Below, in pieces: positions 3,277 to 22,806 of a DNA stretch of 64,000 bases. The notes beneath the pieces were generated by a model. The model did no database searches. It had not been told where the DNA came from and saw only the letters and a program-made list of their open reading frames with translations. Origin of the DNA: Bacteroidales bacterium (GTDB lineage Bacteria; Bacteroidota; Bacteroidia; Bacteroidales; GCA-2748055). Position 1 is the stretch's first letter; every line of letters begins with the position of its first letter. The stretch spans positions 124,001 to 188,000 of the forward strand of contig JARGFP010000002.1 in assembly GCA_029210585.1 (NCBI GenBank), written 5' to 3'. The position numbers were made by a program, and so were the translations under genes.

Positions 3277-3356
3277 TGTTCATTGACATTCTCAAATGTT
3301 CATTGACATTCATCAATGTTCATTCACTTTCCGCAGTGTTCATTCACATTCGCCGA
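3277..3356. repeat. Four tandem 20-bp repeats across the 3' end of the trehalose gene
   Basis: Four head-to-tail 20-base units begin at 3277, 3297, 3317 and 3337, each starting TGTTCATT and continuing (G/C)ACATTC or a close variant. The fourth unit encodes the last residues and stop codon of the T6P synthase/phosphatase on the minus strand; the other three are just downstream. Units 1-2 share 15 of the first 15 bases and units 3-4 differ at few positions. Confidence 0.9.
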
Positions 3357-5568: not shown

Positions 5569-5767
5569 TCTTATAAAACTTGTTATCGATTTCTTCTTCG
5601 TTATTTAGGCGCACACACGTGTCAATATACAAAATTTTCCGCTGATTTCGGCAACGTGTATACAATGGGCTGCGCCACAGCCGTATGTCAAATATTTTTG
5701 AATGGTTGCGGAAAAATAGATACCTTAAAGGCTTCATTTCATTGTTAAACCTAAAAAACTGAACGGT

Positions 5768-8700
5768 ATGTTGGAATTCGATGCAGTAATTTTCGACCTC
5801 GACGGTGTGATCACCAAGACTGCCCTGGTACACGGCTCTGCGTGGAAAAGAATGTTTGATGACTATCTTAAATCACGGGAGGAACGTTTTGGTGAACCCT
5901 TCAGGGAATTTACGCATGCGGATGATTACCTTCCCTATGTGGATGGAAAACCGCGGTACAAAGGGGTCCAGTCATTTCTCGAATCGCGCGGGATAGATAT
6001 TCCGTTCGGGGATCCATCTGATGATCCTGAAAAAGAAACAGTGTGTGCACTTGGGAACAGGAAAAATGTGCTGTTCAATGAAGTACTTGATGATGAGGGC
6101 GTGGAGGTATACGATTCAACAGTGGAATTGATCAAACAGTTAAAAAAGGCGGGCGCACGCATTGGGGTTGCTTCTTCCAGCAAAAACTGTAAACCGGTAT
6201 TGGAAACAGCGAATCTGCTGTATTATTTCGAGACCCGCATCGATGGTGTTGTCTCCGCGGAAATTGGTCTGCACGGAAAGCCTGAACCGGATATTTTCAC
6301 CACTGCATGTGACCGGCTGGGGGTGGAATACCACCGGGCGATCGTGGTGGAGGATGCCGTATCGGGGGTACAGGCCGGCAGGAACGGGAATTTCGGTCTT
6401 ACCATTGGTGTGGCCCGCGAGGAAAATGTGCGGGAACTGCAGATCAACGGCGGGGATATTGTCGTGGAGGACCTGGGTGAACTCACCCTGGAAGATCTGA
6501 ACAACTGGTTCAGGAACGGCATTGCAGAGGATTCCTGGCAGCTGCATTACTATGACTACAACAAGGAAAAGGAGCGGTCGCGGGAGGCGCTGCTGACCGT
6601 GGGCAACGGCTATTTTGGGACACGGGGAGCGCTGGAGGAAAGTGAGGCAAACGAGGTGAATTACCCCGGGACATACATGCCGGGATTGTTCAACAGGAAG
6701 ACTTCAAGGGTAGGCGACCATGATATTGAGAACGAGGATTTTGTCAATGCATCCAACTGGTTGCCGGTGAGTTTCCGGATCGATGGAGGGGAATGGTTTG
6801 AGTTCAAGCCCGACGCCACCTTCAGCATAGAAAAGATCCATCGCCGGCTTGATATGCGTAACGGAACACTGTTCAGGTTCATGATTGTTGCGGATGACCA
6901 GGGGCGGCGTACGATGATCAAGAGCACCCGGTTTGCAGGGATGCACGATCCGCACCGCGCAGCAATGAGCTATGCCATCACTCCCCTGAATTATTCAGCC
7001 CCTGTGGAGATCCAGTCCATGCTCTCCGGCGACCACATCAATGCAGGCGTGGAACGCTACAGTGATTTGGAGCAGGAGCACCTGGAGCCGGTGAGCGAAA
7101 ACGCCAAGGACGGTATCCTGCAGTTGCTGGTGAAGACCACGCAGTCGGATGTGAACATTGCCATGGCGGCCAGGCACCGGGTCAACCGGATCCATATCGA
7201 CAGCAAAATCAAAACAGGCCGGGCGAAGATCTCGGAATTATTCAGGCTGGAGGCAAATGAGGGAGAGGAGATCATGCTTGAAAAAATGGTGACGGTATAT
7301 ACCACACTGAAAAATGACTCTGAAGAACCCATCAGGGATGCAGTCAGGGCCATTAACGAAGTGGAAGGTTTCCAGGATGAGCTTGATAAATCAGCTGCGG
7401 CATGGAAGGAAATCTGGGACAGGATCAACATCAGGATAACAGCCGACAGGAACGCGCAGCGACTGCTTCACCTGCACCTCTATCACATGATGGTAACAGC
7501 TTCCCCGCACCATGCGAAAATGGATTCTGGTATTCCTCCGAGGGGACTGCACGGTGAAGCCTACCGGGGCCACATTTTCTGGGATGAACTGTATATCCTG
7601 CCGTTGTACAATATCCACTTCCCGGAGGTGACACGCTCCACACTGATGTATCGCTACAAGCGCCTGGCTGAAGCCAGGAAATATGCCCGGGAATACGGGT
7701 ATGAAGGGGCGATGTTCCCGTGGCAAAGCGGCAGCGATGGCAGGGAAGAGACGCAGGTCGTTCACCTGAATCCCATGTCGGGAGAATGGGGCGACGATTA
7801 CAGTTCATTGCAGCGCCATGTATCGCTGGCCATCGCCTTCAACCTCTGGAATTATTACCATGCCACGGCTGACAGGGAGTTTATGGTCAACTACGGGAAC
7901 GAGATATTCCTTGATATCTGCAAATTCTGGATCAGCAAGACTGAGAAGGGGGAGGATGGCAGGTACCATATCGACAAGGTGATGGGTCCGGATGAATTCC
8001 ACGAGAAACTTCCCGGAAGTGAGGAGGGAGGAGTTACTGATAATGCCTACACGAACATCATGGTCAGCTGGATGCTCACCAGGGCCGAGGACCTGGTGGA
8101 AGATTTCGGTTCGGAAGGAATTGCAGATGTGTTGCAGCAGCTGGGGATATCGGAGTCAGATTTTGACAAGTGGAAAGAGATTGAACGTAACCTGACACTA
8201 CATATTAATGATGACGGGATTATTGAACATTTTGACGGATATTTCGGGCTGGAGGAACTGGACTGGGATGCATACGAGGAGAAATACGGGGATATCCATC
8301 GCCTGGACCGGATCCTCAAGGCCGAGGGGAAATCGCCTGATGCCTATAAATTATCGAAGCAGGCCGATCTCCTGATGGCCTTCTACAACCTGGGCAATGC
8401 AGAGGTGACTGCCATCATTGAAAAGATGGGATACACGGTGCCTGGTGACTATGTTCAGAAGAATTTTGATTACTACATCCACCGCACCTCCCACGGTTCC
8501 ACCCTGAGCAGGCTGGTTCATGCGCGGCTTGCATTCAATGCCGGGTTAAACGAGAAGGGATGGCAACTGTACATGGAATCGCTTGAGAGTGACCTGAACG
8601 ACATACAGGGAGGTACTACGGGGGAAGGCATCCACTGCGGCGTAATGGCAGGGACCGTGTATGACAGCCTGGTGGCGTTTGCCGGTCTGGATCTTTCTGG

Positions 8701-8914
8701 CGAAGTGCCGGCGCTTGATCCGGAACTGTCTGCCGGCTGGAAGGGTATGGAATTCTGTTTCGGTTTCCGCAGCAACAGGTTTGCGGTTTCCATTTCAGAT
8801 GCGGAGTGTAAAATAACATTGCAGGAATCTGCAAAAGACAAAATAAACATTCATATTTGTGGCACGGAAAAGGAGTTGAAACCGGGGGCGACACTAAAGG
8901 TTGCCCTGGATTAA
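5768..8914 (+). CDS. Beta-phosphoglucomutase / GH65 disaccharide phosphorylase fusion
   Basis: A 1048-residue two-enzyme fusion. Residues about 1-240 are a HAD-family beta-phosphoglucomutase: FDLDGVITK with Asp10 and Asp12, GVASSSKN, GLHGKPEPDIF and VVEDAVSGVQAG. Residues about 255-1045 are a family-65 glycoside phosphorylase. They include the substrate loop HGEAYRGHIFWDELY, PWQSGSDGREE, and the catalytic acid Glu in MGPDEFHEK near residue 742. GH65 phosphorylases split trehalose, kojibiose, nigerose or maltose with phosphate to give glucose and beta-glucose-1-phosphate, which the mutase turns into glucose-6-phosphate. The neighbouring OtsAB fusion makes trehalose the most likely substrate; this is inference. 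No signal peptide. The kinase gene follows after 18 bp. Confidence 0.92.
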   Translation: MLEFDAVIFDLDGVITKTALVHGSAWKRMFDDYLKSREERFGEPFREFTHADDYLPYVDGKPRYKGVQSFLESRGIDIPFGDPSDDPEKETVCALGNRKNVLFNEVLDDEGVEVYDSTVELIKQLKKAGARIGVASSSKNCKPVLETANLLYYFETRIDGVVSAEIGLHGKPEPDIFTTACDRLGVEYHRAIVVEDAVSGVQAGRNGNFGLTIGVAREENVRELQINGGDIVVEDLGELTLEDLNNWFRNGIAEDSWQLHYYDYNKEKERSREALLTVGNGYFGTRGALEESEANEVNYPGTYMPGLFNRKTSRVGDHDIENEDFVNASNWLPVSFRIDGGEWFEFKPDATFSIEKIHRRLDMRNGTLFRFMIVADDQGRRTMIKSTRFAGMHDPHRAAMSYAITPLNYSAPVEIQSMLSGDHINAGVERYSDLEQEHLEPVSENAKDGILQLLVKTTQSDVNIAMAARHRVNRIHIDSKIKTGRAKISELFRLEANEGEEIMLEKMVTVYTTLKNDSEEPIRDAVRAINEVEGFQDELDKSAAAWKEIWDRINIRITADRNAQRLLHLHLYHMMVTASPHHAKMDSGIPPRGLHGEAYRGHIFWDELYILPLYNIHFPEVTRSTLMYRYKRLAEARKYAREYGYEGAMFPWQSGSDGREETQVVHLNPMSGEWGDDYSSLQRHVSLAIAFNLWNYYHATADREFMVNYGNEIFLDICKFWISKTEKGEDGRYHIDKVMGPDEFHEKLPGSEEGGVTDNAYTNIMVSWMLTRAEDLVEDFGSEGIADVLQQLGISESDFDKWKEIERNLTLHINDDGIIEHFDGYFGLEELDWDAYEEKYGDIHRLDRILKAEGKSPDAYKLSKQADLLMAFYNLGNAEVTAIIEKMGYTVPGDYVQKNFDYYIHRTSHGSTLSRLVHARLAFNAGLNEKGWQLYMESLESDLNDIQGGTTGEGIHCGVMAGTVYDSLVAFAGLDLSGEVPALDPELSAGWKGMEFCFGFRSNRFAVSISDAECKITLQESAKDKINIHICGTEKELKPGATLKVALD

Positions 8915-8932
8915 GAAAAAGAACTGCGCGAT

Positions 8933-9601
8933 ATGCTTGGAGACATTTTACTGATCAACGATATGCACAAAGAGGCTGCAGAAGCCATTTGTGTGCATGT
9001 GTTGGAAAATCTTGCAACAAAAGAGGAGAGGTACAGGTATATCGTTGGCATCTCCGGCGAGAGTGGTTCGGGTAAATCCGAGCTGTCGCATGCCCTTGGA
9101 AAAGCGCTGAAGTCACACCATATCAGGGTGAAGGTTGTTCATACCGATAACTATTACAAGATACAGCCACTGCTCAGGGAGGAGTGGAGGAGGAACAAGG
9201 GGTTCGATATGATAGGGCAGGATGAATATGACTGGGTAAAGATCCAGAAAACAATCCGTGATTACAAGGAGGAGCAGGAGACCATGATGCCCTGCGTGGA
9301 TTTGATCCCCGAGCAGGTGGACAAGCTGCTTGTGGATTTTGAGAAGATCGACCTGCTGATCGTTGACGGGTTGTATGCCATCAAGGCTCCGGATATTGAC
9401 CTGCGTATTTTTATTGATCTCACCTACCACGAAACCAAGATCAACCAGATCATCAGGATGAAGGAGGCCATGACCGATTTCAGGCTGAACATACTGGAGC
9501 GGGAGCACCAGGCCGTAAGGGCACTCAGGCCCATGGCGGACATGATCATCAACAAGGCTTACCAGTTCAAACGCCCCGAAGAGGTGGAAGAGGATGAGTA
9601 G
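8933..9601 (+). CDS. Uridine kinase / phosphoribulokinase-like P-loop kinase
   Basis: A 222-residue cytosolic protein with Walker A GISGESGSGKS at residues 39-49, the DNYY motif (HTDNYYKIQP) of uridine kinases, and a LLIVDGLYAI Walker-B-like strand. A lid region with IRMKEAMTDFRLNILERE follows. The family phosphorylates uridine, ribulose-5-phosphate or pantothenate. The sequence differs enough from canonical Udk that the substrate is uncertain. It lies 18 bp after the phosphorylase/mutase gene and is probably in the same operon, so a role on a sugar or nucleoside linked to disaccharide breakdown (for example freeing or trapping glucose units) is possible but unproven. Confidence 0.75.
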   Translation: MLGDILLINDMHKEAAEAICVHVLENLATKEERYRYIVGISGESGSGKSELSHALGKALKSHHIRVKVVHTDNYYKIQPLLREEWRRNKGFDMIGQDEYDWVKIQKTIRDYKEEQETMMPCVDLIPEQVDKLLVDFEKIDLLIVDGLYAIKAPDIDLRIFIDLTYHETKINQIIRMKEAMTDFRLNILEREHQAVRALRPMADMIINKAYQFKRPEEVEEDE

Positions 9602-9849: not shown

Positions 9850-12800
9850 ATGAAGAAATTTTACCTACTGTTGATGATCGGATTTATGACAATTGGATTG
9901 TCGGCTCAAAATTTAGTGTTAAATCCTGGCTTTGAAGCCTGGGATGATGCGAATACTCCAACGAGTTGGACGAAAGCAGAGAATGTGGAACAGGAATCTG
10001 TTGCAGAGAATGTGCATTCTCAAACCTATTCTGCAAAACATACTGCGGATGGGACCAAAGACCTCAGTCAAACGTTTGCTGTTGAAGCAGGAAAGACCTA
10101 TAAGCTTTCCATTTGGTATAAGAATGAAAATGGAGATGGTACAGATTGCAGAATATGGTCCAACTGGGTAGCTGATGGCGTAAGCCTCACAGATGATGAT
10201 GCAATTTTGAAGAACAATTCAGCGTATTTCACAAGCAGTGCTACCTGGAACGAATATTCGGTTATACTGACTGCTCCTTCGAATGCTACAGATTTTTATT
10301 TAGAAGTCAGGAGTTACGGAAGTGCTATTACTTACTGGGAGGATTTCTCATTTGAAGAGATTACAGTAACGAAGACCGCATCACCCCTGTTCTTCTCAGA
10401 ATACATTGAAGGAAGTTCCAGTAACAAGGCACTGGAGATTTACAATCCGAATGATGCTGAAGTTGATCTCTCCTCATATCAAATTGCACAATCCAGTAAT
10501 GGGGGAGGGTGGCAATATTACCATGAATTTCCAGTTGGAGCGGCAATTGCTGCGGGGGATGTTTGGGTTATTGTAAACAGCCAGATTAGTTCTACACTTT
10601 TTCCTCCGGAAAATGCAGATGAAGTATTATCCGGAGGCAGTGCTGTCAGTTTTAACGGTGATGATGCACGTGCAATTGTGTATATTACCGACACTGATAC
10701 GACGATATTGGATGTAATCGGAATTCCCGTTGAGAGTCCATATGGTACATGGGATGTTGCAGGTGTTACTGGAGCAACGAAAGATCACACACTCATTCGT
10801 AAAGATGGCACTACCATGGGAACGGATGACTGGGCGGCGAGTGCAGGAACTGATGCTGATAATTCGCAATGGATCGTATTTGATCAGAATTATTTTGATG
10901 ACTTGGGATCCTATGGTCCGGATGTTAAGGCTCCTGAAGTGGTTTTCAGTCCGGAAGACGGAGCCATGAGTGTTTCCACCGGAGTACAGGTTGTTCTCAC
11001 TTTTAATGAACCCATTTTTGGAACCGGGGGTGCAGAAATTACGGATCCTACTGCACTTGTTGAATTGCGCGAAACAGATAATGCTGGCGCTGTCGTTCCT
11101 TTTACAGCTTCCATAAATGCAGAAAAAACTGAAATTACAATCGTGCCGGATGCAGCACTTAGTAATGACCAGTTATATTTTGTTGCACTGCTGGCGGGTG
11201 TAGTTGAGGATGAGGTTGGTAATGGCATTGAAACCGTAATCAGTTCAACATTTACAACCATTGGCCCGATTGAGGTGACATATCCTGCAGGTGGCGAGGT
11301 GTTCTATCCAGGAAAGGATGTTCATATCGACTGGATCTCAGATAACGTGGGAAATATTACCATTTGGGTCTCTTTCAACAACGGTGTCGACTTTGTCCCG
11401 ATTGTTGAGAATATTGATCCTGCTCCGGGTACTGTAAATTATACAATTCCTTCAGATTCACCAGCTTCCCTTGAGGCTGTTATTCGCATAACTGAGGCTA
11501 CCAATACGACATTCGAGGCAGGCGAGCCGATGGATGATTCAGAACCCTTCTATATCCTGCCGGTATTCACTATCAGTGACATACAGGGAACGCTCGAAGC
11601 TGATGGTAATTCAAGTTATGAAGACACCATTTGTATTACAACAGGGATCGTTACCTATGCCAATGGCACGAATGAATACTATATTTCAGATGGTACAACC
11701 AATGATTACAGTGCTATTGCAGTCCGGGACAATGTTAATAAACCAGCCGTTGGTGACAGTATTGTCATCGCCGGAACGGTTGATGAGTATTACAACCTGA
11801 CGCAGATGAATGACCTGCTCCATTATGAATTGATTGCTTCAGGTAAAAACGTTCCTGCGCCGGTTTCTGTTACAACTGGAGCTGCAGGAGAAGCACAGGA
11901 AGGGTTAATTGTCTCCATAGCAGATGCCGTTGTTACGAAAGAGGCAAATAATTTTGGTGAGGTTGAAGTGGATGATGGCAGTGGTGTTATCCTGATCGAT
12001 GATGTGTATTTTGCTGGTATATTCAACCTGGGCGGAACTTATAATGTTACCGGACCACTCTCATTTGCATATAATAAATGGAGAATTTACCCGAGAACTG
12101 CAGATGATGTAGTTGAAGTCCTTTCCTCAGATGCTACGCTCACTTCAGCGCAATACACTGTGGATAATGACCTGGGTACCATTGCGGATGTCCCGGCCCT
12201 TGAGGACCTTGCAACATTTGAATCAAATCTTGTTGCAGCTTATGGCGCTACATTCGAAGTGTATGAAGCAGACGGGACAACGGTTGCAAATGACCTGAAG
12301 TCGGATTACAATGTGATTGTTACGGCGCAAGATGGTACAACAAAAACGTATATCGTTACAAAAGCAGCGTTAAGCAGTGATGCTACGGTATCATCCCTGG
12401 TGTATGCTATCGATGACAATGCCGGCACCATCAACGGAGTGCTCTTTAAAGCATCTGTGAGCACTTTCGAGGCATTGCTTTTACCTGCAACTGGCGCTTC
12501 TTTCTTCACTTACCAGGCAGATGGTGTGACTGAAGCGACTGACCTGGCAACAGGTTACAAGCTCATTGTTACTGCTGAAGACGGAACAACCACCAAAACC
12601 TATACGATCACTATTGAAACGGAAATGCCTGCGGACCTGATCTTCTCTGAATACATTGAAGGAAGTGGGAATAATAAGGCGATCGAAGTCTTTAATCCGA
12701 ATGATGAAGCCATTAAGCTGGATTACTACCAGGTAGCACAAATCAGCAACGGTGGCGATGACTGGGAATATTTCCATGCATTCCCGGTAGGTTCAGTATT

Positions 12801-13713
12801 GGGTTCACATGAAACGTGGGTAATGATCACTGATCAGACCGAAGAAACAATGTTCCCTTCTGCAAATGCTTATGAGGTTCTCTCTTATCCGAGTGTTGTG
12901 CACCACAATGGTGATGATGCACGCGGTCTCGTTATCGTTACCGGGTTGGATACCACACTGGTTGATATCATTGGAGAAGTCGGTCCAGATCCAGGATCAG
13001 GTTGGGATGTAGCAGGAGTAACAAATGCAACTGCGGAACACACGATCATCAGGAAAGGAAGTATTTTAGAAGGGAATACGGATTGGGCTTCCAGTGCGGG
13101 AACCAATGCTGATGATTCAGAATGGATCGTGAAGGATCAAGACTTCTTTGATAGCCTTGGTGTCCATATTATTGTAGCTCCTGAACCTTCAGACGATGCA
13201 ACACTCAGTGACCTGCTGGTAGATGGTACTTCCATCGACGGGTTTACTCCGGCGCAGTTGTCTTACTTTGTTACGCTGCCTTCAGGCACAACCACAGTAC
13301 CCACGGTTACAGCTACCACTGCAGATGCGAATGCAACAGTGAATATCGTGGATGCCACGGATCTTTCCGGTGATGCCGCAGCCCGCACTACAACAATTGA
13401 AGTTACGGCAGAAGACGGAGTTACCATGAAGACCTATTCCGTTGAATTCACGGTTGACGTGAGTGCAAGGGATGCCATGCTGAACAGGGTACAGATCTAC
13501 CCGGTTCCGGCAATTAATACCCTGCACCTTGCAAATGCTTCGGAAATCCGTACACTTACGGTGTATGATATCACCGGGGCAGCAGTACAGCAAACGAAGA
13601 ATGCAGGTGAAGCCCGCATTTCCATGGACATTACTTCGCTCGACAGCGGCGTGTATATGATCAGGTTGGAGAATGAGGATGCCACCCGCGTAGTGAGATT
13701 TGTAAAGCAATAA
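9850..13713 (+). CDS. Secreted T9SS protein with two lamin-tail domains and an OB-fold-like domain
   Basis: A 1287-residue exported protein with a signal peptide ending near SAQ (residue 20). Domains in order: carbohydrate-binding-like beta-sandwich (about 20-170); lamin-tail domain LTD1 (178-356, FFSEYIEGSSSNKALEIYNP); Big_5-like Ig domain (361-467); Kre9/Knh1-like domain (474-570); OB-fold/DUF5689-like domain (573-755); two short beta-sandwich repeats (757-925, each ending near TAxDGTTKTY); LTD2 (928-1110, FSEYIEGSGNNKAIEVFNP); cadherin-like beta-sandwich (1116-1204); T9SS type A sorting domain (1214-1287, VQIYPVPA ... GVYMIRLEN). The LTD plus OB-fold layout recalls ExeM-type extracellular nucleases, but I see no endonuclease/exonuclease/phosphatase domain. 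It is probably a cell-surface binding protein; nucleic acid as ligand is inference from neighbours. Confidence 0.85.
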   Translation: MKKFYLLLMIGFMTIGLSAQNLVLNPGFEAWDDANTPTSWTKAENVEQESVAENVHSQTYSAKHTADGTKDLSQTFAVEAGKTYKLSIWYKNENGDGTDCRIWSNWVADGVSLTDDDAILKNNSAYFTSSATWNEYSVILTAPSNATDFYLEVRSYGSAITYWEDFSFEEITVTKTASPLFFSEYIEGSSSNKALEIYNPNDAEVDLSSYQIAQSSNGGGWQYYHEFPVGAAIAAGDVWVIVNSQISSTLFPPENADEVLSGGSAVSFNGDDARAIVYITDTDTTILDVIGIPVESPYGTWDVAGVTGATKDHTLIRKDGTTMGTDDWAASAGTDADNSQWIVFDQNYFDDLGSYGPDVKAPEVVFSPEDGAMSVSTGVQVVLTFNEPIFGTGGAEITDPTALVELRETDNAGAVVPFTASINAEKTEITIVPDAALSNDQLYFVALLAGVVEDEVGNGIETVISSTFTTIGPIEVTYPAGGEVFYPGKDVHIDWISDNVGNITIWVSFNNGVDFVPIVENIDPAPGTVNYTIPSDSPASLEAVIRITEATNTTFEAGEPMDDSEPFYILPVFTISDIQGTLEADGNSSYEDTICITTGIVTYANGTNEYYISDGTTNDYSAIAVRDNVNKPAVGDSIVIAGTVDEYYNLTQMNDLLHYELIASGKNVPAPVSVTTGAAGEAQEGLIVSIADAVVTKEANNFGEVEVDDGSGVILIDDVYFAGIFNLGGTYNVTGPLSFAYNKWRIYPRTADDVVEVLSSDATLTSAQYTVDNDLGTIADVPALEDLATFESNLVAAYGATFEVYEADGTTVANDLKSDYNVIVTAQDGTTKTYIVTKAALSSDATVSSLVYAIDDNAGTINGVLFKASVSTFEALLLPATGASFFTYQADGVTEATDLATGYKLIVTAEDGTTTKTYTITIETEMPADLIFSEYIEGSGNNKAIEVFNPNDEAIKLDYYQVAQISNGGDDWEYFHAFPVGSVLGSHETWVMITDQTEETMFPSANAYEVLSYPSVVHHNGDDARGLVIVTGLDTTLVDIIGEVGPDPGSGWDVAGVTNATAEHTIIRKGSILEGNTDWASSAGTNADDSEWIVKDQDFFDSLGVHIIVAPEPSDDATLSDLLVDGTSIDGFTPAQLSYFVTLPSGTTTVPTVTATTADANATVNIVDATDLSGDAAARTTTIEVTAEDGVTMKTYSVEFTVDVSARDAMLNRVQIYPVPAINTLHLANASEIRTLTVYDITGAAVQQTKNAGEARISMDITSLDSGVYMIRLENEDATRVVRFVKQ

Positions 13714-13733
13714 CAGGTTTCAGACAATAATTG

Positions 13734-13770
13734 AACCGGAACGGCAATGCCTGCCGTTCCGGTTATTTAT
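13734..13770 (+). terminator. Rho-independent terminator
   Basis: A 13-bp stem AACCGGAACGGCA / TGCCGTTCCGGTT (13734-13746 with 13752-13764) and a 5-base loop are followed by ATTTATCTT. It ends the transcript of the 1287-residue protein and partly separates it from the downstream four genes. Confidence 0.75.
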
Positions 13771-13845
13771 CTTAAGTTGTTTAAATTGATAGCATAAGGA
13801 CACCAGGAGGCATTGGAAAAAAGTACATAAATAAAGCAAAAGTAT

Positions 13846-14889
13846 ATGAGAAGGATTATTATAATGGTGGCCATGGGAATTGCTGCCGGTACATTGTTTG
13901 CCCAGGACTGTTCCGAATTGTTCATTTCGGAATACCTGGAAGGAAGCGGAAACAATAAAGGGCTGGAGATCTACAACCCTACAGATGGTGTGATCAACCT
14001 GGGTTCCTATTGGGTGGCGAGGTACAGTAACGGCAGCAATACTTATACGGATGGAGGCATTACACAACTGGAAGGCTTTATTCAGCCGTATGGAACACAT
14101 TTGATCGTAAATGGACAGACCACTTCAACGGAAGCATCCCCGGCATCTGATCCTAATTTGCGTGCAATTGCACAACAACCGGACCACGATTACCCGGCAC
14201 CAACATACATGAACGGCAACGATGCGATTGCCCTGTTCAAGGATACAGGCGGGAGCGGCGATATTAACGATTTTGTTCTGGTCGACCTTTTCGGAATTAT
14301 TGGTGGTGGTATGCCCTCCAACGCAGAGGGGTGGGCGTCGATCACCGAACATTGGGTGTACAGGAATATCTATGAAGATGGCGAGATTGTTGGGCAGGAC
14401 AGCACCTATATCACCAATTATATCATTCCTGATGGTTACTATTTCCTGAGATGGTGGCTCTGGAGTGCCAACCATTCGCTGGTAAGAAAGCCAAACATTA
14501 AGAAAGGGGTGACTGCAGACAGGATGCCCAACGTGGAATTCAATGTGACGATTGAATGGGATACCGTTCCCGGGGGCGTGGATAAGTGGGATTCGCTGAA
14601 TGCCCATTATTGCGTGTGTGAATTCGGTACGGATATTGAAACCTCGGAGGTGATATGCTCGTTCAGCCTGTACCCGAACCCAACAGGATCATTTGTTAAT
14701 ATTTCATACGAAGAAGGCATCGACCGGGTAACCATTCATGACATGTCAGGTAAGCTGGTATACAGGTCTGAAGATCTGAAGGGGGTACGCCAGGAGGAGT
14801 TCACCATTGATCAGTTGTCGGATGGTATGTATATGTTACGGATCCGATCTGGGGAACGGATACTATCCAGGAAACTGATTAAAAATTAG
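13846..14889 (+). CDS. Secreted lamin-tail-domain protein with T9SS sorting domain
   Basis: A 347-residue exported protein. The signal peptide ends at LFAQ (about residue 20). A single lamin-tail domain follows directly (LFISEYLEGSGNNKGLEIYNP), close in sequence to both LTDs of the preceding gene. The C-terminal 75 residues are a T9SS type A domain (FSLYPNPTGSFVNISYEEG and GMYMLRIRSGERI). No catalytic motif is visible. LTDs in bacteria occur in extracellular nucleases and surface proteins, where they are thought to help binding. The gene is 33 bp upstream of the TonB-dependent receptor, so the product may be a surface accessory of that receptor. Confidence 0.88.
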   Translation: MRRIIIMVAMGIAAGTLFAQDCSELFISEYLEGSGNNKGLEIYNPTDGVINLGSYWVARYSNGSNTYTDGGITQLEGFIQPYGTHLIVNGQTTSTEASPASDPNLRAIAQQPDHDYPAPTYMNGNDAIALFKDTGGSGDINDFVLVDLFGIIGGGMPSNAEGWASITEHWVYRNIYEDGEIVGQDSTYITNYIIPDGYYFLRWWLWSANHSLVRKPNIKKGVTADRMPNVEFNVTIEWDTVPGGVDKWDSLNAHYCVCEFGTDIETSEVICSFSLYPNPTGSFVNISYEEGIDRVTIHDMSGKLVYRSEDLKGVRQEEFTIDQLSDGMYMLRIRSGERILSRKLIKN

Positions 14890-14922
14890 ACCTGGACAAA
14901 ACCAAATTCCAAAACATTTTCG

Positions 14923-17688
14923 ATGAACAGATTTTTTTTTATTGTATTGCTGATTACAGGTGTACTTTCTTTGAGCGCGCAGCATGTTGCGGTTTCGGGA
15001 TTGGTGAAAGATGCACAGACAGGGGAGCCGCTTATTGGAGCCAATATTGTTTATGGACCCACGCAAGGGACCGTTTCGGATTACTCTGGCAACTTTACGC
15101 TCCGGTTGTCACCGGGTGAGTATACATTGAATATATCTTATGTAGGTTATGAAAAGGAAGTCAGGCAGATAACGGTCATAGACAGACCGGTGCTTCTTAC
15201 AGTGGAACTTGAGTCTATGACCATTGACGAGGTGATAGTGACCGCAGATATGGCCATCTCCAGGGAGACCCCCGTGGCATTTACCAATGTAAATCCGGCA
15301 AAGATACAGGAGGAGCTGGCCGGACAGGATCTCCCCATGATCCTGAATACCACCCCGGGGGTGTATGCCACCCAGCAGGGTGGGGGAGACGGGGATGCGC
15401 GGATCACCATTCGTGGTTTCGACCAGCGCAACCTGGCCGTGATGATTGACGGGATTCCGGTGAACGATATGGAGAATGGTTGGGTGTACTGGTCCAACTG
15501 GTTCGGGCTTGATCTGGTTACCCGTACGATGCAGGTACAGCGTGGATTAGGGGCTTCACAACTGGCGCTGCCTTCAGTTGGGGGAACCATCAATATCCTT
15601 ACAAAAGGTATTGAGAACAAGAGACAAACCACTATCAAGCAATCGGTCGACAGCCAGGGGAAAATCCAGACAAACCTGGGTTTTACCAGTGGCCAGCTTG
15701 CCAATGGATGGGGCATCACCCTGGCCGGAGCCTACAAGCGTGGTGATGGCTGGGTGGACAATACCTATTCGGAAGGCTGGTTTTATTATGCCAAGATTGA
15801 CAAGCGTTTCAAAAAACACCTGTTGACGTTCACGGCGATGGGTGCGCCACAAATGCATGACCAGCGTTCGTATAAGCGCCCCATTTCGACGTATGATATA
15901 GCATATGCCAAAGAACTGGGAGTGAACCTGGATGAACTGCGCGCCTCCAATCCAAGATACAATATTTATGATGCTGGCATCACTTACAACCAGCACTGGG
16001 GTGTGTTACGCCGGGACAAGAATGATCCTGATGCACCATTAGAGCGGTTATCTTCAGCATCCAATCAATACCATAAGCCACAATTTGTTTTGCGTGATTT
16101 CTGGACCATCTCCGATCGATTTACCATGTCGAACAATATTTACCTCAGCATTGGCAAAGGTGGTGGCGACAACCCCCAGAGCAGTATAAAGGATACCCGG
16201 CTGATCCATGATCCTGACGATCCATATTATGGTCAGATCAACTGGCAGGGCATCTATGATGACAACTGGAAGCCACAGCCTCCGTTGAATCTCAGACCAA
16301 TCAATCGAACCTACTCCGATTCGCTTACTTATGCCAGCAATTACATGATCAGGAGACACAACGAACACTATTGGGTGGGTCTGTTGTCTAAATTTGATTA
16401 TAGCCTTAGTGAAAGCCTGGATCTGAGCGGAGGTGTTGACCTACGATCCTATAAAGGCATTCACTTTACTACCGTGCGCGATCTCCTGGGAGGTGATTAT
16501 GTGATTGATAAAAGCGATACGCGTGTAAATTATGCCGAAAACGTGATGGAAGCTGTGAAGCTTGAAGGCGATACCATCGCTTATTATTATGATGGACTTG
16601 TCCGCTGGGGAGGAATTTTTGGTTTACTGGAATACAGTAACAACAGGTTTACATCCTTCCTGAACCTGTCTTCAGCGATCACTTCACTGAACAAAGTTGA
16701 TTACTATCTCAATTCGGAATCGGGATGGCTGAACAGGTATGGTTTTACTGTTAAAACCGGGGCAAATTACAACCTCACGGAAAGATCAAATATCTATATG
16801 AACCTGGGTTTGCTGTCCAAAGCGAAGGCATACAGGCATTATTACCTGGGATATACCACTGAATTTAAACCAGATATCAATAACGAACTTGTAAAAGCCT
16901 TTGAGCTGGGGTATAATTATGCTTCTTCCAGGTTTTCTGCCAATCTGAATGCTTATTACACGGTCTGGGAAAACAAACCCCTGAGTACAATATATTCCAC
17001 ATACACATTGCGGGAAGGGGACCCGGGATACGTGGAAGGCGATCCTGATCAGAATGCCGAAAAACGTGTATTTGCAGATATCACAAATATGCATGCAAGG
17101 CACATTGGCGTGGAGATGGATTTTATATATAAAATACGATACAACCTGGAACTTCAGGGTACCGTTTCCCTGGGCGATTGGATTTATGATTCATACATCG
17201 AGGACCTTCAATACTATCTTTATGAAGGGAATTTCCCTCCCGTACAGAAAGTGATTGATGTGGATGCACGGGGGATACACGTAGGAGATGCGGCGCAAAC
17301 CCAATTGGGTACCAGCATCAGGTATGAACCTTTCAAGGGCTTTTATATGAATCTTCGTCAGACATACTTCGGAAAATATTATTCCAATTTTTCTCCGGAA
17401 GCAACCCTGGATGAGAGTGGACAGGTACATGATTCATGGGTCATGCCAAATTTCAACCTGTTTGATATACATGCGGGATATGGTTTCAGGCTGCCTGCGA
17501 TGGATCAGATGCGTTTCAATCTGCGTTTTTCCATGCTGAATGTGTTGGATACAAAATATTTATGGGATGCAACCAACAATGATCCTTACAGTCCCTACTC
17601 GGAATTCCAGGATTTTGATGCAGAATCAGCCACGGTGTTCTTTGGAATGGGAAGAAGATTTACAACTTCATTTACCGTTACTTTTTAA
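14923..17688 (+). CDS. TonB-dependent outer-membrane receptor
   Basis: A 921-residue outer-membrane receptor. The signal peptide ends at LSAQ (about residue 19). A carboxypeptidase-regulatory-like beta-sandwich follows (about 22-105, VSGLVKDAQTGEPLIGANI). The plug domain is at about 125-230 (PMILNTTPGVYATQQGG, ITIRGFDQRNLAVMIDGIPVND), then a 22-strand type barrel ending in a terminal phenylalanine (TTSFTVTF). No SusD partner is adjacent, so it is not a classic polysaccharide-utilisation SusCD pair. Its neighbours are lamin-tail proteins and two nucleases, which suggests uptake of nuclease products such as oligonucleotides or nucleosides. The substrate is inference. Confidence 0.92.
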   Translation: MNRFFFIVLLITGVLSLSAQHVAVSGLVKDAQTGEPLIGANIVYGPTQGTVSDYSGNFTLRLSPGEYTLNISYVGYEKEVRQITVIDRPVLLTVELESMTIDEVIVTADMAISRETPVAFTNVNPAKIQEELAGQDLPMILNTTPGVYATQQGGGDGDARITIRGFDQRNLAVMIDGIPVNDMENGWVYWSNWFGLDLVTRTMQVQRGLGASQLALPSVGGTINILTKGIENKRQTTIKQSVDSQGKIQTNLGFTSGQLANGWGITLAGAYKRGDGWVDNTYSEGWFYYAKIDKRFKKHLLTFTAMGAPQMHDQRSYKRPISTYDIAYAKELGVNLDELRASNPRYNIYDAGITYNQHWGVLRRDKNDPDAPLERLSSASNQYHKPQFVLRDFWTISDRFTMSNNIYLSIGKGGGDNPQSSIKDTRLIHDPDDPYYGQINWQGIYDDNWKPQPPLNLRPINRTYSDSLTYASNYMIRRHNEHYWVGLLSKFDYSLSESLDLSGGVDLRSYKGIHFTTVRDLLGGDYVIDKSDTRVNYAENVMEAVKLEGDTIAYYYDGLVRWGGIFGLLEYSNNRFTSFLNLSSAITSLNKVDYYLNSESGWLNRYGFTVKTGANYNLTERSNIYMNLGLLSKAKAYRHYYLGYTTEFKPDINNELVKAFELGYNYASSRFSANLNAYYTVWENKPLSTIYSTYTLREGDPGYVEGDPDQNAEKRVFADITNMHARHIGVEMDFIYKIRYNLELQGTVSLGDWIYDSYIEDLQYYLYEGNFPPVQKVIDVDARGIHVGDAAQTQLGTSIRYEPFKGFYMNLRQTYFGKYYSNFSPEATLDESGQVHDSWVMPNFNLFDIHAGYGFRLPAMDQMRFNLRFSMLNVLDTKYLWDATNNDPYSPYSEFQDFDAESATVFFGMGRRFTTSFTVTF

Positions 17689-17771
17689 ATCTTCCTCCGG
17701 GAACCAATGTGAAATGGTGTTTTGAGTGTTTTTAAAGCGTTTATGTATAATAAATCAGATAGAATACAAAT

Positions 17772-20249
17772 ATGAAGAAGTTATGTATAATGATCAGCCT
17801 GTTACTGGCTGGGAATCTTGCCCTTGAGGCGCAAGAGAATATTGCTGCAGCGCGGGCGCTGGGAGTGGGAGCTGAAGTAACAGTTACCGGGATCGTTACC
17901 AATGGCGATGAACTGGGACTCATTCGGTATATGCAGGATGCCACTGGTGGTATAGCAGTTTATTCCTCTGCGTTGAGCGATGTACAACGCGGTGATGAGG
18001 TAACGGTAACCGGCATTATCAAGGATTATAATACGTTGCTGGAGATTGATCCTGTTTCCGCGGTGACCGTGAATTTAACAGGGAACCCTTCACCTGATCC
18101 TGTTGTACTCACACCCGCCCAGTTGGCAGTGCAGTATGAAGGTATGCTGGTGAAGATCAATAACGTGGATTTCGATGCATCGGGAACTTTCGAGCGGAGT
18201 TCATATACATTTACGGCTGACGGGGAAGCAGGTCAGATCTATGTCAATTCCTTTGACTCCCCATTGATCGGAATGGTGATCCCCACCAATCCTGTTTCGG
18301 TGGTTGGTCCACTCGGTGCATATGGCGGTACCTACCAGCTGCTGCCCCGCGACCAGTTCGACATCCTTTCATCAAGCGTGATCAACATGACCAGTGTTCC
18401 GGAATTGAGCAATTTGTCAACAACAGGATTTACTGTATCCTGGACCACGGATGTGGCGGGGACCACCGAAGCTTTTTACGGAAATACCACGGAACTGGAA
18501 CTGGGCAAATTGTCGGAATCAGGAGAAACCACTTCACATGCCATCAACCTATCAGGGCTTGCTGCTTCAGAGCTGATCTATCTTCAGCCCTTTTCGGTAA
18601 AGGACCAGGATACCATCAAGGCAACCGTACAGGTATATATCACGCAATCCGAATCATCAGGCGACGTGAAAGCTTATTTCAACCGGTCGGTGGACAATTC
18701 CGTTTCGCTGGGACTGCTGGAGGCAAAATATCTTGACCATGCAATCGATGATACACTGATTAATTATATCAACAGGGCAGAGGAGTCGATCGATTTTACT
18801 ATTTACAATTTCAATAACAATGGGATCTCAAACCTTTCTGATGCGCTGAATGCAGCGCATGACCGTGGCGTGACCGTGCGGGTGATCTATGACAGCAACA
18901 TTGATGCGGTGGGCGTGGAATCACTGAATGCGGCCATCGGCAGACTGGCAAGTCCGAAATCTGAATTCCCGTTGTATGGCATCATGCACAATAAATTTAT
19001 TGTCTTTGATGCCGATGCGGCTGATCCTGACAAACCGGTGGTCTGGACCGGCGCAACCAATTTCACTGATGGACAGATTAACCGGGATCCCAACAATGTG
19101 ATCATCGTGCAGGACAAGAGCCTGGCAAAGGCCTTCCAGATGGAGTTTAACGAGATGTATGGAAGCGACGAATCTCAGCCTGACCCTGCAAGGGCCAGGT
19201 TCGGACCTGACAAGGAAGACAATACCCCGCACGAATTTATCATCAACGGCAGCCGGGTGGAATGCTATTTCAGCCCTTCGGATGGAACGCACAACCAGAT
19301 TCTCAATGCCATCGCAACAGCCGATCATTCGATCCACATTGCCACGATGCTGATCACCAAATCAGATATCGGGTATGACCTGAGCGAGAAAAATGATGCG
19401 GGAGTGGATGTGAAGGTGCTGATCAATGACTTTGATCAATATGGCGAGCCTATTGTAGAACAGCTGAAATCAAGCCTGGAGGACGATATCAGGGTGAAGG
19501 GTGAAACAGGAATCATGCACCATAAATACATGATCGTCGACCAGGGCCATGCAGATTCTGACCCCATCCTCCTGACGGGTTCACACAACTGGAGTTCGTC
19601 TGCACAGTTCAGGAATGATGAAAACACACTGATCTTTCACAGCCAGGCAGTGGCGAATGCCTATTACCAGGAATTTGTGGAGCGATTCTCGTTCGGCGAA
19701 CTGGTAGTTCCCAAACCGGAACTCAAGAACGATTTTGTTACCATGAGCGGCGGGTCCTCTTTCAGGTACGATGTGCTGTATAATGATGACCTGCCAGGGG
19801 CAGTGAATGTTTCCATCAGCTCCCAGCCATCGCACGGTGATGCCAGGGTGGAAACAGACAAAACCATCACCTATACCCCGGAGCCCGGGTTCAACCAGGC
19901 CATTGATACAGTTGTCTACCAGGTTTGCCTGGTCAACACTTCGATTTGTGACAGTGCGCTGTTTGTGATCTATGTGAACAAGCCTGTATCTGTGACAGAA
20001 ACGGATCTTGACAGGTATGTTTCTGTGTACCCTGTGCCTGCATCGGACCTTGTTTCCATCAGCGTAGCCGGAGGCCGGAACTTCAGGAGCATCGGGATGT
20101 ACGACCAGGCCGGCAGGGAAACATTCCGGAGCGGACAACAGCCCGGGAACGAATTTGTAATTTCAGTCCGGGATTTTGAACCGGGGCTGTATTACCTGAG
20201 AATGGAACTGGATGAAGGAGTGGTCAGCAGGAAGATTATCATACAATAA
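17772..20249 (+). CDS. Secreted phospholipase-D-superfamily nuclease-like protein with T9SS sorting domain
   Basis: An 825-residue exported protein with a signal peptide ending at LEAQ (about residue 21). An OB-fold/DUF5689-like domain (about 25-200) is followed by a fibronectin-III-like domain (205-300). Two PLD half-domains carry HxK(x)4D motifs: HNKFIVFD near 404-411, followed by TGATNFTDG, and HHKYMIVD near 582-589, followed by TGSHNWS. A cadherin-like beta-sandwich (645-740) and a T9SS type A domain (VSVYPVPASD ... GLYYLRMEL) complete it. Two HKD motifs in one chain form a complete active site for phosphodiester cleavage, of phospholipid or nucleic acid. The OB-fold and the adjacent endonuclease I make nucleic acid the likelier substrate. 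All key residues are intact. Confidence 0.88.
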   Translation: MKKLCIMISLLLAGNLALEAQENIAAARALGVGAEVTVTGIVTNGDELGLIRYMQDATGGIAVYSSALSDVQRGDEVTVTGIIKDYNTLLEIDPVSAVTVNLTGNPSPDPVVLTPAQLAVQYEGMLVKINNVDFDASGTFERSSYTFTADGEAGQIYVNSFDSPLIGMVIPTNPVSVVGPLGAYGGTYQLLPRDQFDILSSSVINMTSVPELSNLSTTGFTVSWTTDVAGTTEAFYGNTTELELGKLSESGETTSHAINLSGLAASELIYLQPFSVKDQDTIKATVQVYITQSESSGDVKAYFNRSVDNSVSLGLLEAKYLDHAIDDTLINYINRAEESIDFTIYNFNNNGISNLSDALNAAHDRGVTVRVIYDSNIDAVGVESLNAAIGRLASPKSEFPLYGIMHNKFIVFDADAADPDKPVVWTGATNFTDGQINRDPNNVIIVQDKSLAKAFQMEFNEMYGSDESQPDPARARFGPDKEDNTPHEFIINGSRVECYFSPSDGTHNQILNAIATADHSIHIATMLITKSDIGYDLSEKNDAGVDVKVLINDFDQYGEPIVEQLKSSLEDDIRVKGETGIMHHKYMIVDQGHADSDPILLTGSHNWSSSAQFRNDENTLIFHSQAVANAYYQEFVERFSFGELVVPKPELKNDFVTMSGGSSFRYDVLYNDDLPGAVNVSISSQPSHGDARVETDKTITYTPEPGFNQAIDTVVYQVCLVNTSICDSALFVIYVNKPVSVTETDLDRYVSVYPVPASDLVSISVAGGRNFRSIGMYDQAGRETFRSGQQPGNEFVISVRDFEPGLYYLRMELDEGVVSRKIIIQ

Positions 20250-21780
20250 CAGGATTCCGACTGGAAGAGAATCCGGATTAGAAGGCAGATCCAAAACTGA
20301 ACGACGAACTACAGAAGGACGAGCAGCTGAAGGTCGAACTTCAGAATTGAGAACTGCGGAAGTACGATCTACAGAAGTACGATCTGTAGCAAAAGTACGA
20401 TCCGCAGCAGCACATCAAACCTTCAGGTCAGTCCTGCTATTGTGGCTGGTCGCGTTTTCGGGAACCTTCCTCTTTGCCCAGCCTGCCGGCTATTATGCAA
20501 TGGCAGAGGGAAAGCAAGGGGAGGAGCTGCAGTGGGCGCTGCATGAAATCATTGATGACCATGTGGTATTGAGCTATTCAGATCTGTGGACCGCTTTTCG
20601 CAGTACCGATAAGCGTGCCGACGGATCGGTGTGGGATATGTATTCCGACCGTCCCGGTGATACGCCGCCGTATGTATATACCTTTGGCACAGACCAGTGT
20701 GGCAATTACAGCGGGGAGGAAAGCTGCTACAACCGCGAGCATTCCTTCCCGAAGAGCTGGTTCAATGATGCCTCTCCCATGTACACCGACCTGTTCCATC
20801 TCTATCCCACAGATGGCTATGTGAACGGAAAACGCAGCAACTTTCTTTTCGGGGAGACCGGTAATGCCTCCTGGACTTCTCTAAACGGTTGTGAGGTTGG
20901 CCCCTCCTCGGTGGATGGCTATTCCGGGACCGTCTTTGAACCGATCGATGCCTACAAGGGAGATTTTGCACGTACCTATTTCTACATGGCAACCAGGTAC
21001 TACGGTGAAGATGCCGGGTGGCCAGGTAGCCCGATGGTGGATGGCGCACAGCTTGAACCCTGGGCCAGGGAAATGATGGTGCGGTGGCACAATGAAGATC
21101 CCGTGAGCGGGAAAGAGACCGCGAGGAATGATGCAGTTTATGCTTTGCAGCGGAACAGGAATCCATTTATTGACCGCCCGGAGTTCGTACAGTTGATGTA
21201 CAGTGATGGTGGAGGTGAAATTCCCGACGAACTCGCACCCGACCTGGACAGCATCACAGTTGTGAGTGCCACGGAAATCACGTTGTTGTTCAATGAGCCG
21301 CTCGACAGCCTGAATGCCTCCGACCCGTCGCATTATAAGATCAGCAGCAGTGTGGTGGTGGAACGTGCCGCATGGAGCTCCGCCAACCCGGCCGGTGTGT
21401 TGCTCGGGGTTTCCGGACTGGAAAACGGCACCTATTCACTGATATTGAATGGTGTATCCGATACTTCCGGCAATGTCCTCCAACAAGCTTTCTATCCCTT
21501 TGAAGTCACTACACTTTCTGGTGAGGGAATGTCCGCCGGGGTTGATTTCAGGGTCTATCCCAATCCCTCTGAAGGGATCTTTCATATTGAATTTTCCGGG
21601 AACCACGGGCCGGTCGACCAGCTGGTTGTGCTGGATATTGCCGGCCAGAGGGTGCCGGCTGAATGGAGCCGTTATGCTTCCGGCATCCGCGTTTCCACAC
21701 CTGCCGATGCTGGTGCCTACCTGGTTGCAGGCCTCTTGAAAGGCACGGTTGCCTGGCGCTTCCGCATACTTGTTTATTAG
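20212..21780 (+). CDS. Secreted endonuclease I (EndA/NucM family) with T9SS sorting domain
   Basis: The longest frame gives 522 residues. A hydrophobic signal segment (SVLLLWLVAFSGTFLFAQ) ends near residue 90, followed by an endonuclease I domain (about 95-330). This has YTFGTDQCGNYSGE and the catalytic CYNREHSFPKSWF near 173-185, then DLFHLYPTDGYVNGKRSN. A Big_5-like domain (about 345-440) and a T9SS domain (VDFRVYPNPSEGIFHIEF onward) follow. The family cuts DNA and RNA non-specifically outside the cell. The start is unclear: ATG 20212 overlaps the previous gene by 38 bp and gives an Arg-rich, repeat-encoded N-terminus, whereas TTG 20347 in the same frame would give a shorter n-region. I give the full frame. 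Confidence 0.85.
   Translation: MKEWSAGRLSYNNRIPTGRESGLEGRSKTERRTTEGRAAEGRTSELRTAEVRSTEVRSVAKVRSAAAHQTFRSVLLLWLVAFSGTFLFAQPAGYYAMAEGKQGEELQWALHEIIDDHVVLSYSDLWTAFRSTDKRADGSVWDMYSDRPGDTPPYVYTFGTDQCGNYSGEESCYNREHSFPKSWFNDASPMYTDLFHLYPTDGYVNGKRSNFLFGETGNASWTSLNGCEVGPSSVDGYSGTVFEPIDAYKGDFARTYFYMATRYYGEDAGWPGSPMVDGAQLEPWAREMMVRWHNEDPVSGKETARNDAVYALQRNRNPFIDRPEFVQLMYSDGGGEIPDELAPDLDSITVVSATEITLLFNEPLDSLNASDPSHYKISSSVVVERAAWSSANPAGVLLGVSGLENGTYSLILNGVSDTSGNVLQQAFYPFEVTTLSGEGMSAGVDFRVYPNPSEGIFHIEFSGNHGPVDQLVVLDIAGQRVPAEWSRYASGIRVSTPADAGAYLVAGLLKGTVAWRFRILVY
20288..20402 (+). repeat. Degenerate short repeats encoding an Arg-rich leader
   Basis: Short direct repeats of the type ACAGAAGTACGATCT and looser variants (GAAGGTCGAACT, GCGGAAGTACGATCT) run through the 5' part of the endonuclease gene. 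They encode a TEVRS/AEVRS-type Arg/Glu-rich stretch ahead of the signal peptide. This could be a translated leader or a non-coding spacer before a later start. Confidence 0.6.
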
Positions 21781-21885: not shown

Positions 21886-22710
21886 ATGAAATTGAAAATG
21901 TTAAGACCTATATACTTACTGATGATCGTATCCATGGGACTCATGTTTACAATATCCTCATGTGAAAAGGATCCGGCACCCATGGAACTGCCACCGGCAG
22001 AATCCCTTGTGATCAACTGGGACAAGTTTCCTTCCAGTACAAGTAAAAGTGCTGACGATGCACTTTTGATGGGCAACTGGTTCTATTCAGCCCGTTCCAT
22101 CGTTGTATGGAATGCCGTAGTAGGTGCAAATATTGTTGTTCCCACAGTAGCCTATGGTGCGGCGTTCAACCATGACCCGGTATACCTTGGCGATGAAACC
22201 TGGGAGTGGAGCTACAGCGTAACTGTGAGCCAGCGGACCATCGTGGCACGACTGGTGGGAATGCGGATCGATAACGAGACGTTCTCCATGGAAATGTACC
22301 TGGCGGAGACTGGAAATTTTGAAGCTTTCAAATGGTTCGAGGGGGTCATCAGGTATGACCATACCGCTGCAGACTGGACCCTCTATCACAGTCCGCAAAA
22401 TTCTGTTGAATACCTGGATATTTCCTATCAGAAAGATTTTGAGAATGAGATCAAAAACATCAGGTACACTGTGGTTGACCCGGAAAATGAACTTTACAAC
22501 GGGTACATCGATTTTGGAATTGATGCGACCATGACGGATTATGATGCACACTACACGATTTCCAAACCTGATACCACGACCTATATCGAATGGGACACAA
22601 CAACCAGGGCTGGAAGGGTGATGGACCAGGAGCGTTATGGAGATGCACTCTGGCATTGCTGGGATACGATGTTGCAGGATGTCGAATGTCCGGCAGAAGA
22701 AGTTCAGTAA
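21886..22710 (+). CDS. Lipoprotein of unknown function
   Basis: A 274-residue protein with a lipoprotein signal (hydrophobic LLMIVSMGLMFTISSC, acylated Cys26). A Pro/Glu-rich linker EKDPAPMELPPAES and a beta-rich domain without a family I recognise follow. Trp and Tyr are frequent and there are few cysteines (one near the end, in DVECPAEE). No serine after Cys+1 is visible that would enforce inner-membrane retention. It is the only gene in the window with a sigma-54 promoter and it lies directly downstream of the secreted nuclease cluster, but its own transcript. It ends before a strong bidirectional terminator. Confidence 0.85.
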   Translation: MKLKMLRPIYLLMIVSMGLMFTISSCEKDPAPMELPPAESLVINWDKFPSSTSKSADDALLMGNWFYSARSIVVWNAVVGANIVVPTVAYGAAFNHDPVYLGDETWEWSYSVTVSQRTIVARLVGMRIDNETFSMEMYLAETGNFEAFKWFEGVIRYDHTAADWTLYHSPQNSVEYLDISYQKDFENEIKNIRYTVVDPENELYNGYIDFGIDATMTDYDAHYTISKPDTTTYIEWDTTTRAGRVMDQERYGDALWHCWDTMLQDVECPAEEVQ

Positions 22711-22743: not shown

Positions 22744-22806
22744 GAAAAAAACAACCGGACCCCGAATTGATGATCAGCATCAGTATCGGGGTCCGGTTGT
22801 TTTTAT
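22744..22806. terminator. Bidirectional rho-independent terminator
   Basis: Arms ACAACCGGACCCCGA (22751-22765) and TCGGGGTCCGGTTGT (22786-22800) pair over 15 bases. A-rich bases precede the stem (22744-22750) and T-rich bases follow it (22800-22805). It serves both the plus-strand lipoprotein gene and the convergent minus-strand GTPase gene. Confidence 0.85.

Follow-up and report, generated by a model that had tools for sequence, protein, structure and literature searches.

The window analyzed here, a 64,000 nucleotide stretch (contig positions 124001-188000) of a 4.6 Mb Bacteroidales-like genome, contains a locus that probably serves to acquire nucleic acids, with a dedicated clade of TonB-dependent receptors (TBDRs) at its centre. 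The conserved unit is a triad, LTD-TBDR-(OB)nuclease, and not all five of the genes from which the locus was first recognized. The initial annotation had placed five genes for exported proteins in a row on the plus strand between positions 9850 and 21780, and all five were recovered as open reading frames at these coordinates, but a sixth gene, g6 (21886-22710, plus strand), had been overlooked; it encodes a lipoprotein of unknown family, and relatives retain it, either following g5 or replacing it. Domains in g1 to g6 were called from Pfam and NCBIfam scans. Four of the five proteins had been credited with type IX secretion (T9SS) sorting domains; these were clear on g1, g2 and g4, but the match on g5 was marginal and fell below both curated cut-offs (22.1 against 27 bits in Pfam, 21.5 against 23 in NCBIfam). 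With C-terminal sorting domains on g1, g2 and g4 and the translocon component SprA encoded in the host genome (2617 bits), these three proteins qualify as type IX secretion cargo.

The first gene, g1 (9850-13713, plus strand), encodes a large surface protein with a CBM_4_9-like domain, two LTD domains, Big_5, an OB domain resembling the N-terminal region of ExeM/NucH, cadherin-like repeats and a Por_Secre_tail. No catalytic domain was found in it with Pfam or NCBIfam, and a role in nucleic-acid binding is proposed. In most close relatives, the gene before g2 encodes an LTD/OB/T9SS protein resembling g1, of varying architecture. Between g1 and g2 lies a terminator-like or attenuator hairpin (13734-13764; -24.2 kcal/mol, z -6.9); a second one (about 22747-22804; -42.2 kcal/mol, z -9.4) follows g6, between convergent genes, where it is a probable bidirectional terminator. 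Because both hairpins are strong, g2 to g6 are predicted from sequence to form, probably, one transcription unit, with g1 on a separate transcript.

The three core genes of the triad lie next to each other on the plus strand. The first, g2 (13846-14889), encodes an LTD domain and a T9SS sorting domain (Por_Secre_tail). The second, g3 (14923-17688), qualifies as a TBDR by its Plug and CarbopepD_reg_2 domains and a C-terminal Phe (11 of 11 aligned orthologues); its barrel did not match PF00593, and its best NCBIfam partial matches were to the plug regions of BtuB-type receptors. The predicted structure of g3 (pLDDT 46.6) was too poor for binding-site inspection or a fold search. No SusD family member was found in g1 to g6 with Pfam or NCBIfam, which bears out the earlier description of the locus as being without SusD.

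The third core gene, g4 (17772-20249), occupies the nuclease slot and encodes a DUF5689/OB region (about 17865-18365), two PLDc_2 domains (1e-41), Big_9 and a Por_Secre_tail. The two intact HKD motifs attributed to it are present as HNKFIVFD and HHKYMIVD, both of the form HxKx4D, and with the two PLDc_2 domains they identify g4 as a PLD superfamily nuclease. NucT was the best NCBIfam match, and the PDB matches include the endonuclease 1byr and NucT (6ehi), and also mitochondrial cardiolipin hydrolases. The following gene, g5 (20212-21780, plus strand), encodes an endonuclease I (EndI) with a weak T9SS tail. Its catalytic domain (about 20518-21183) matched Endonuclease_1 (PF04231) over the full length (E 1e-77), it contains the catalytic Glu-His pair and the Asn of NxxR, and it aligns to the Vibrio nuclease 1oup/1ouo. 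The family motif (REH...NGxR) had been reported as intact, and we found REH and VNGKR to be conserved in an alignment with 41 relatives. The start codon of g5 is uncertain: the ATG at 20212 overlaps g4, and an imperfect 15/30-base tandem repeat, minisatellite-like (20297-20409, plus strand), lies upstream of the signal peptide. A model of g6 (pLDDT 78) matched no other fold significantly, the best E being 0.014. EndI (g5) and the lipoprotein (g6) are accessories of the triad.

Within the host genome, which contains 56 Plug-containing TBDR genes, the single EndI and the single DUF5689 domain, the latter fused to the nuclease g4, both lie less than 5 kb from the g3 plug, and their position beside g3 is more than a chance grouping. 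LTD domains are commoner in this genome, with 24 matches. One of its SusC-type receptors likewise has an LTD protein nearby.

A receptor search over 61 relatives returned same-family orthologues at 59-76% identity, and wherever these loci had enough contig, g2 lay upstream and g4 downstream of the receptor; g1-like proteins, EndI and g6 were found in a subset. Two more distant loci had the order LTD-TBDR-EndI/OB (L061 and L062), the second of them with an additional PLD protein. Scanning named genomes with a receptor profile produced 80 loci, spanning Bacteroidales, Flavobacteriales, Saprospiraceae and other Bacteroidota, whose neighbors were annotated without prior selection. An LTD gene was immediately upstream of the receptor in 72 of the 76 evaluable loci, and a nuclease gene immediately downstream in 67 of 72, or no more than three genes away in 70 of 72. 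The first refuting condition of the initial annotation, that relatives do not keep the five genes together, was not fulfilled: close relatives keep most of the block and the LTD-TBDR-nuclease core is found phylum-wide, although the five genes are not all fixed. Across 296 Bacteroidia genomes, in which the receptor was scored as present at a profile match with E below 1e-100, EndI occurred in 77 of 89 receptor-bearing and 108 of 207 receptor-free genomes (Fisher p 9e-9, with no correction made for shared ancestry); in at least 15 genomes, that of the window included, EndI was encoded on the same strand 1.2-3.6 kb from the receptor match.

The 67 nucleases immediately downstream of the receptor consisted of 32 PLD+OB proteins and 35 EndI proteins with or without a detected OB domain; whichever the catalytic domain, it was usually accompanied by the same OB domain. 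When these labels were placed on the receptor tree, at least 10 changes between PLD and EndI were required, so that the constant feature of the slot is nuclease activity and not a single fold. The active sites are largely intact: the EndI domains keep the Glu-His pair in 42 of 42 aligned sequences, and the Asn as well, bar one unresolved residue, and both HKD motifs are retained in 42 of 46 PLD proteins, the remainder including truncated gene calls. At about 13-14 loci of the Crocinitomicaceae type, the triad nuclease is followed by a 5'-nucleotidase pair, in which PF02872 and PF00149 are split into separate genes. No PF02872-type 5'-nucleotidase was found in the host genome of the window.

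The triad receptors, g3 included, formed one clade (SH-aLRT 96-99), nested in a larger clade (SH-aLRT 97-100) outside which fell 32 other TBDRs of the host genome, SusC-type or not. These trees came from quick searches, run without bootstrapping on roughly the first 640 residues, and the branching order of the three sub-groups within the larger clade is not firmly resolved. Besides the triad receptors, the larger clade holds lipoprotein-linked receptors and receptors paired with a DUF5689 lipoprotein, and two further members of it were found on one contig (C94, locus L040). Some lipoprotein-linked receptors are near EndI and 5'-nucleotidase (L034 and L066), the receptor of L066 being flanked by the two. 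Among 20 fetched loci of the DUF5689 type, the DUF5689 lipoprotein was present in 18, and an EEP nuclease (Exo_endo_phos_3) was encoded within five genes in at least 12; a 5'-nucleotidase pair was present in two, PLD in one and EndI in one.

The only experimental evidence on receptors of this kind comes, within the literature searched, from Riemerella anatipestifer, where markerless deletion of RA0C_RS04915 or RA0C_RS04920 abolished natural transformation (PMC8459023). The first of these genes encodes a carboxypeptidase-regulatory-like outer-membrane protein that is receptor-like, and the second a DUF5689 + DUF5017 protein (PMC8459023). In one genome (G080), the DUF5689 lipoprotein beside a related-clade receptor matched NCBIfam lipo_M949_1556 (NF052645) with 753 bits, and because of this match and the shared architecture RA0C_RS04915 likely belongs to the DUF5689-linked clade, although this is not directly shown and its sequence was not compared. 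The family name lipo_M949_1556 resembles a Riemerella locus tag. The gene g3 itself does not encode a DUF5689-linked receptor of the Riemerella type, as it lies in the triad clade and not in the DUF5689 clade. According to the initial annotation, its proposal would be refuted by a receptor clade with a known non-nucleotide substrate; none is known for this clade, and the related clade matches the architecture of the Riemerella receptor for which deletion shows a genetic requirement in DNA uptake.

The initial annotation had further inferred that the locus binds, cuts and imports extracellular DNA or RNA. The conserved triad and the receptor clade support this, but the import of DNA or RNA is itself only inferred, there being no transport or binding data. 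As we picture it, T9SS-secreted LTD and OB-fold proteins would retain DNA or RNA on the cell surface, and secreted nucleases would cut the nucleic acid into oligonucleotides; for this step the window encodes both PLD and EndI, and most relatives encode just one of the two. The receptor would then draw the fragments into the periplasm using TonB energy, and periplasmic nucleotidases, encoded beside the triad in some relatives, would strip the phosphate. Nucleic acid as the receptor substrate, the direction and energy of transport, the size of the oligonucleotides and the nutritional purpose are all inferences. Several observations count against acquisition. Without a PF02872 5'-nucleotidase in the window's genome, the periplasmic step is unexplained there; members of the EndI and PLD superfamilies can also serve biofilm release or defence; and some related receptors (for example L037 and L064) have lipoproteins whose role is unknown as neighbors, with no nuclease listed.

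The main use of the system is most likely nutritional, as a source of phosphorus, nitrogen, carbon or bases. The receptor might instead be a DNA-uptake channel for natural transformation, with LTD and OB domains catching dsDNA, the nuclease nicking or trimming it and the receptor passing it to ComEC. Transformation of Riemerella does depend on a receptor of a related type whose partner is a DUF5689 protein (PMC8459023), and the G080 receptor beside the lipo_M949_1556-matching lipoprotein falls in the related clade, but triad receptors and DUF5689-linked receptors form distinct clades, and in most triads the nuclease is exported by T9SS and catalytically intact, so that transforming DNA would be destroyed extracellularly. 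The recurrent extra neighbors that we recognized were, moreover, 5'-nucleotidases and not com genes. Since nearly every triad has a nuclease, exported and intact, and the 5'-nucleotidases recur, we prefer nutrition and judge uptake for transformation to be unlikely, though it is not excluded. Published work agrees with a nutritional use: EndI-LTD nucleases of Flavobacterium increase upon phosphate depletion (PMC8115612), and Lutibacter assimilates extracellular DNA (PMC8289736).

We give little credence to the possibility that the secreted nucleases and LTD proteins act to remodel the matrix, to release biofilms or to defend the cell against extracellular DNA traps while the receptor imports something unrelated. 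LTD and ExeM-type nucleases act in biofilm turnover in other bacteria and T9SS export suits surface enzymes, but an unrelated receptor substrate would not predict that in many families the receptor gene has an LTD gene on one side and a nuclease gene on the other, nor a receptor clade that is repeatedly linked to nucleases, including the related clade with its different nucleases. It also appears improbable that the imported substrate is a small compound derived from or accompanying nucleic acid (nucleotides, nucleosides, phosphate-rich ligands or a DNA-bound metal) and not oligonucleotides. Small ligands are common for TonB receptors, and the BtuB-type plugs among the partial matches of g3 fit such a substrate; endonucleases, however, yield oligonucleotides rather than mononucleotides, and nucleotides are generally able to pass porins, so that a receptor of its own is easiest to understand if the imported pieces are longer.

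Taken phylum-wide, acquisition of nucleic acids by such loci would mean that a set of unnamed loci, each with an LTD protein, a TonB receptor and an exchangeable OB-fused nuclease, actively imports nucleic-acid polymers or oligonucleotides, and that their receptors, together with the DUF5689-linked transformation receptors, make up one superclade that carries nucleic acids through the outer membrane of Bacteroidota. We regard this broader proposal as evenly poised between being right and being wrong. If true, it would add a new class of polymer to the substrates of TonB-dependent transport. The crossing of the outer membrane by transforming DNA in Bacteroidota is known, within the literature searched, from one screen only, and a nuclease-tied receptor clade found across the phylum provides a short list of genes for deletion or purification. 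Our literature search, from which subscription papers and preprints were excluded, found no paper that links LTD, TonB receptors and endonucleases or names the triad, and in the same scope the Riemerella study was the only direct precedent found, whether for DUF5689 or for DNA uptake by TonB receptors. The available portions of two DNA-degradation studies give Bacteroidota an important part in the consumption of extracellular DNA in sediments and describe them as carrying many secreted nucleases in wastewater, and periplasmic nucleotidases as well (PMC8289736, PMC11495043), and report assimilation of extracellular DNA by Lutibacter, a member of the Bacteroidota (PMC8289736); those portions name no outer-membrane route for DNA.

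The locus shares features with several known systems. ExeM/NucH nucleases of Shewanella and Vibrio also tie LTD and OB domains to an extracellular nuclease function, but the window locus lacks an ExeM-type EEP catalytic domain, and g1 and g4 were rejected as ExeM proteins because only their LTD/OB stretches matched NF033680/NF033681, far below the cut-offs. The DNA-degradation loci of Candidatus Izemoplasma (PMC8289736) similarly group extracellular nucleases, nucleotidases and transporters that serve the use of DNA; unlike the window's host, these bacteria have no outer membrane and hence no TonB receptor. EndA1 and EndA2 of Flavobacterium (Fjoh_4721/4723) are secreted EndI + LTD nucleases that increase upon phosphate depletion, but they are given as orphan genes without a linked receptor (PMC8115612). 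In the Riemerella pair RA0C_RS04915/RA0C_RS04920 (PMC8459023), a CarboxypepD_reg receptor-like protein, of the related clade as judged by architecture and NF052645, adjoins a DUF5689 protein; its partner carries DUF5689 + DUF5017 (choice-of-anchor J), in contrast to the LTD protein and OB-nuclease of the window locus. We found no previous description of the receptor clade, of its class of substrate or of a slot in which the nuclease is exchangeable. The locus was rejected as a SusC/SusD polysaccharide utilization locus (PUL), since it has no SusD and g3 lies outside the SusC-type group of the host genome. Like a PUL, it encodes surface binders, a secreted depolymerase and a TonB receptor together, but with nucleases in place of glycosidases, with T9SS sorting domains and with no SusD found; judged by this analogy, a substrate-specific TonB receptor combined with a secreted depolymerase is an arrangement of a kind known from PULs.

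Directly upstream of g1, the LTD/OB gene that opens the plus-strand row, window positions 3340-9601 hold a minus-strand trehalose-6-phosphate synthase/phosphatase-like gene, a HAD-GH65 fusion and a uridine-kinase-like gene, the last two of which also lie upstream in the relatives L054 and L056. At the other end of the row, g5 (EndI) has an extended N-terminus, ahead of the signal peptide, that contains an imperfect 15/30-base tandem repeat (20297-20409). Candidate starts are ATG 20212, which creates an overlap with g4, and an in-frame TTG at 20347, and it is unclear whether the ATG or another codon is the true start. The lipoprotein g6 (21886-22710) matched no family in Pfam or NCBIfam; it is found in at least four relatives, has conserved cysteines and tryptophans at its C-terminal end, and is kept in L054 although EndI is absent there.

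Elsewhere in the same genome (G000), a tandem of two more receptors of the window receptor's superclade was found on contig C94 at about 17-23 kb (L040). A Fib_succ_major lipoprotein lies next to them, as does a T9SS cargo protein, and no nucleases accompany either receptor. The only other LTD and receptor genes found within 6 kb of each other in this genome were a large LTD protein upstream of a SusC-type receptor (C21:77102-83729).

In the triad (LTD, TonB-dependent receptor and nuclease genes) of L107 the receptor is followed by three successive EndI-type genes. The triad of L152 lies in a record titled Glaciecola amylolytica, a gammaproteobacterium (CP034120.1). The L152 flanks, including citrate synthase, are Crocinitomicaceae-like, and the record is probably mislabeled rather than evidence of triad transfer.

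A glycosyltransferase-dihydroorotase gene pair adjoins or is near 15 of the 80 triads (L085, L088, L092, L093, L097, L098, L101-L105, L113, L119, L123 and L156), and the same pair lies alongside one DUF5689-type receptor locus (L050). Its position near these receptors might reflect a common ancestral arrangement or a link to pyrimidines.
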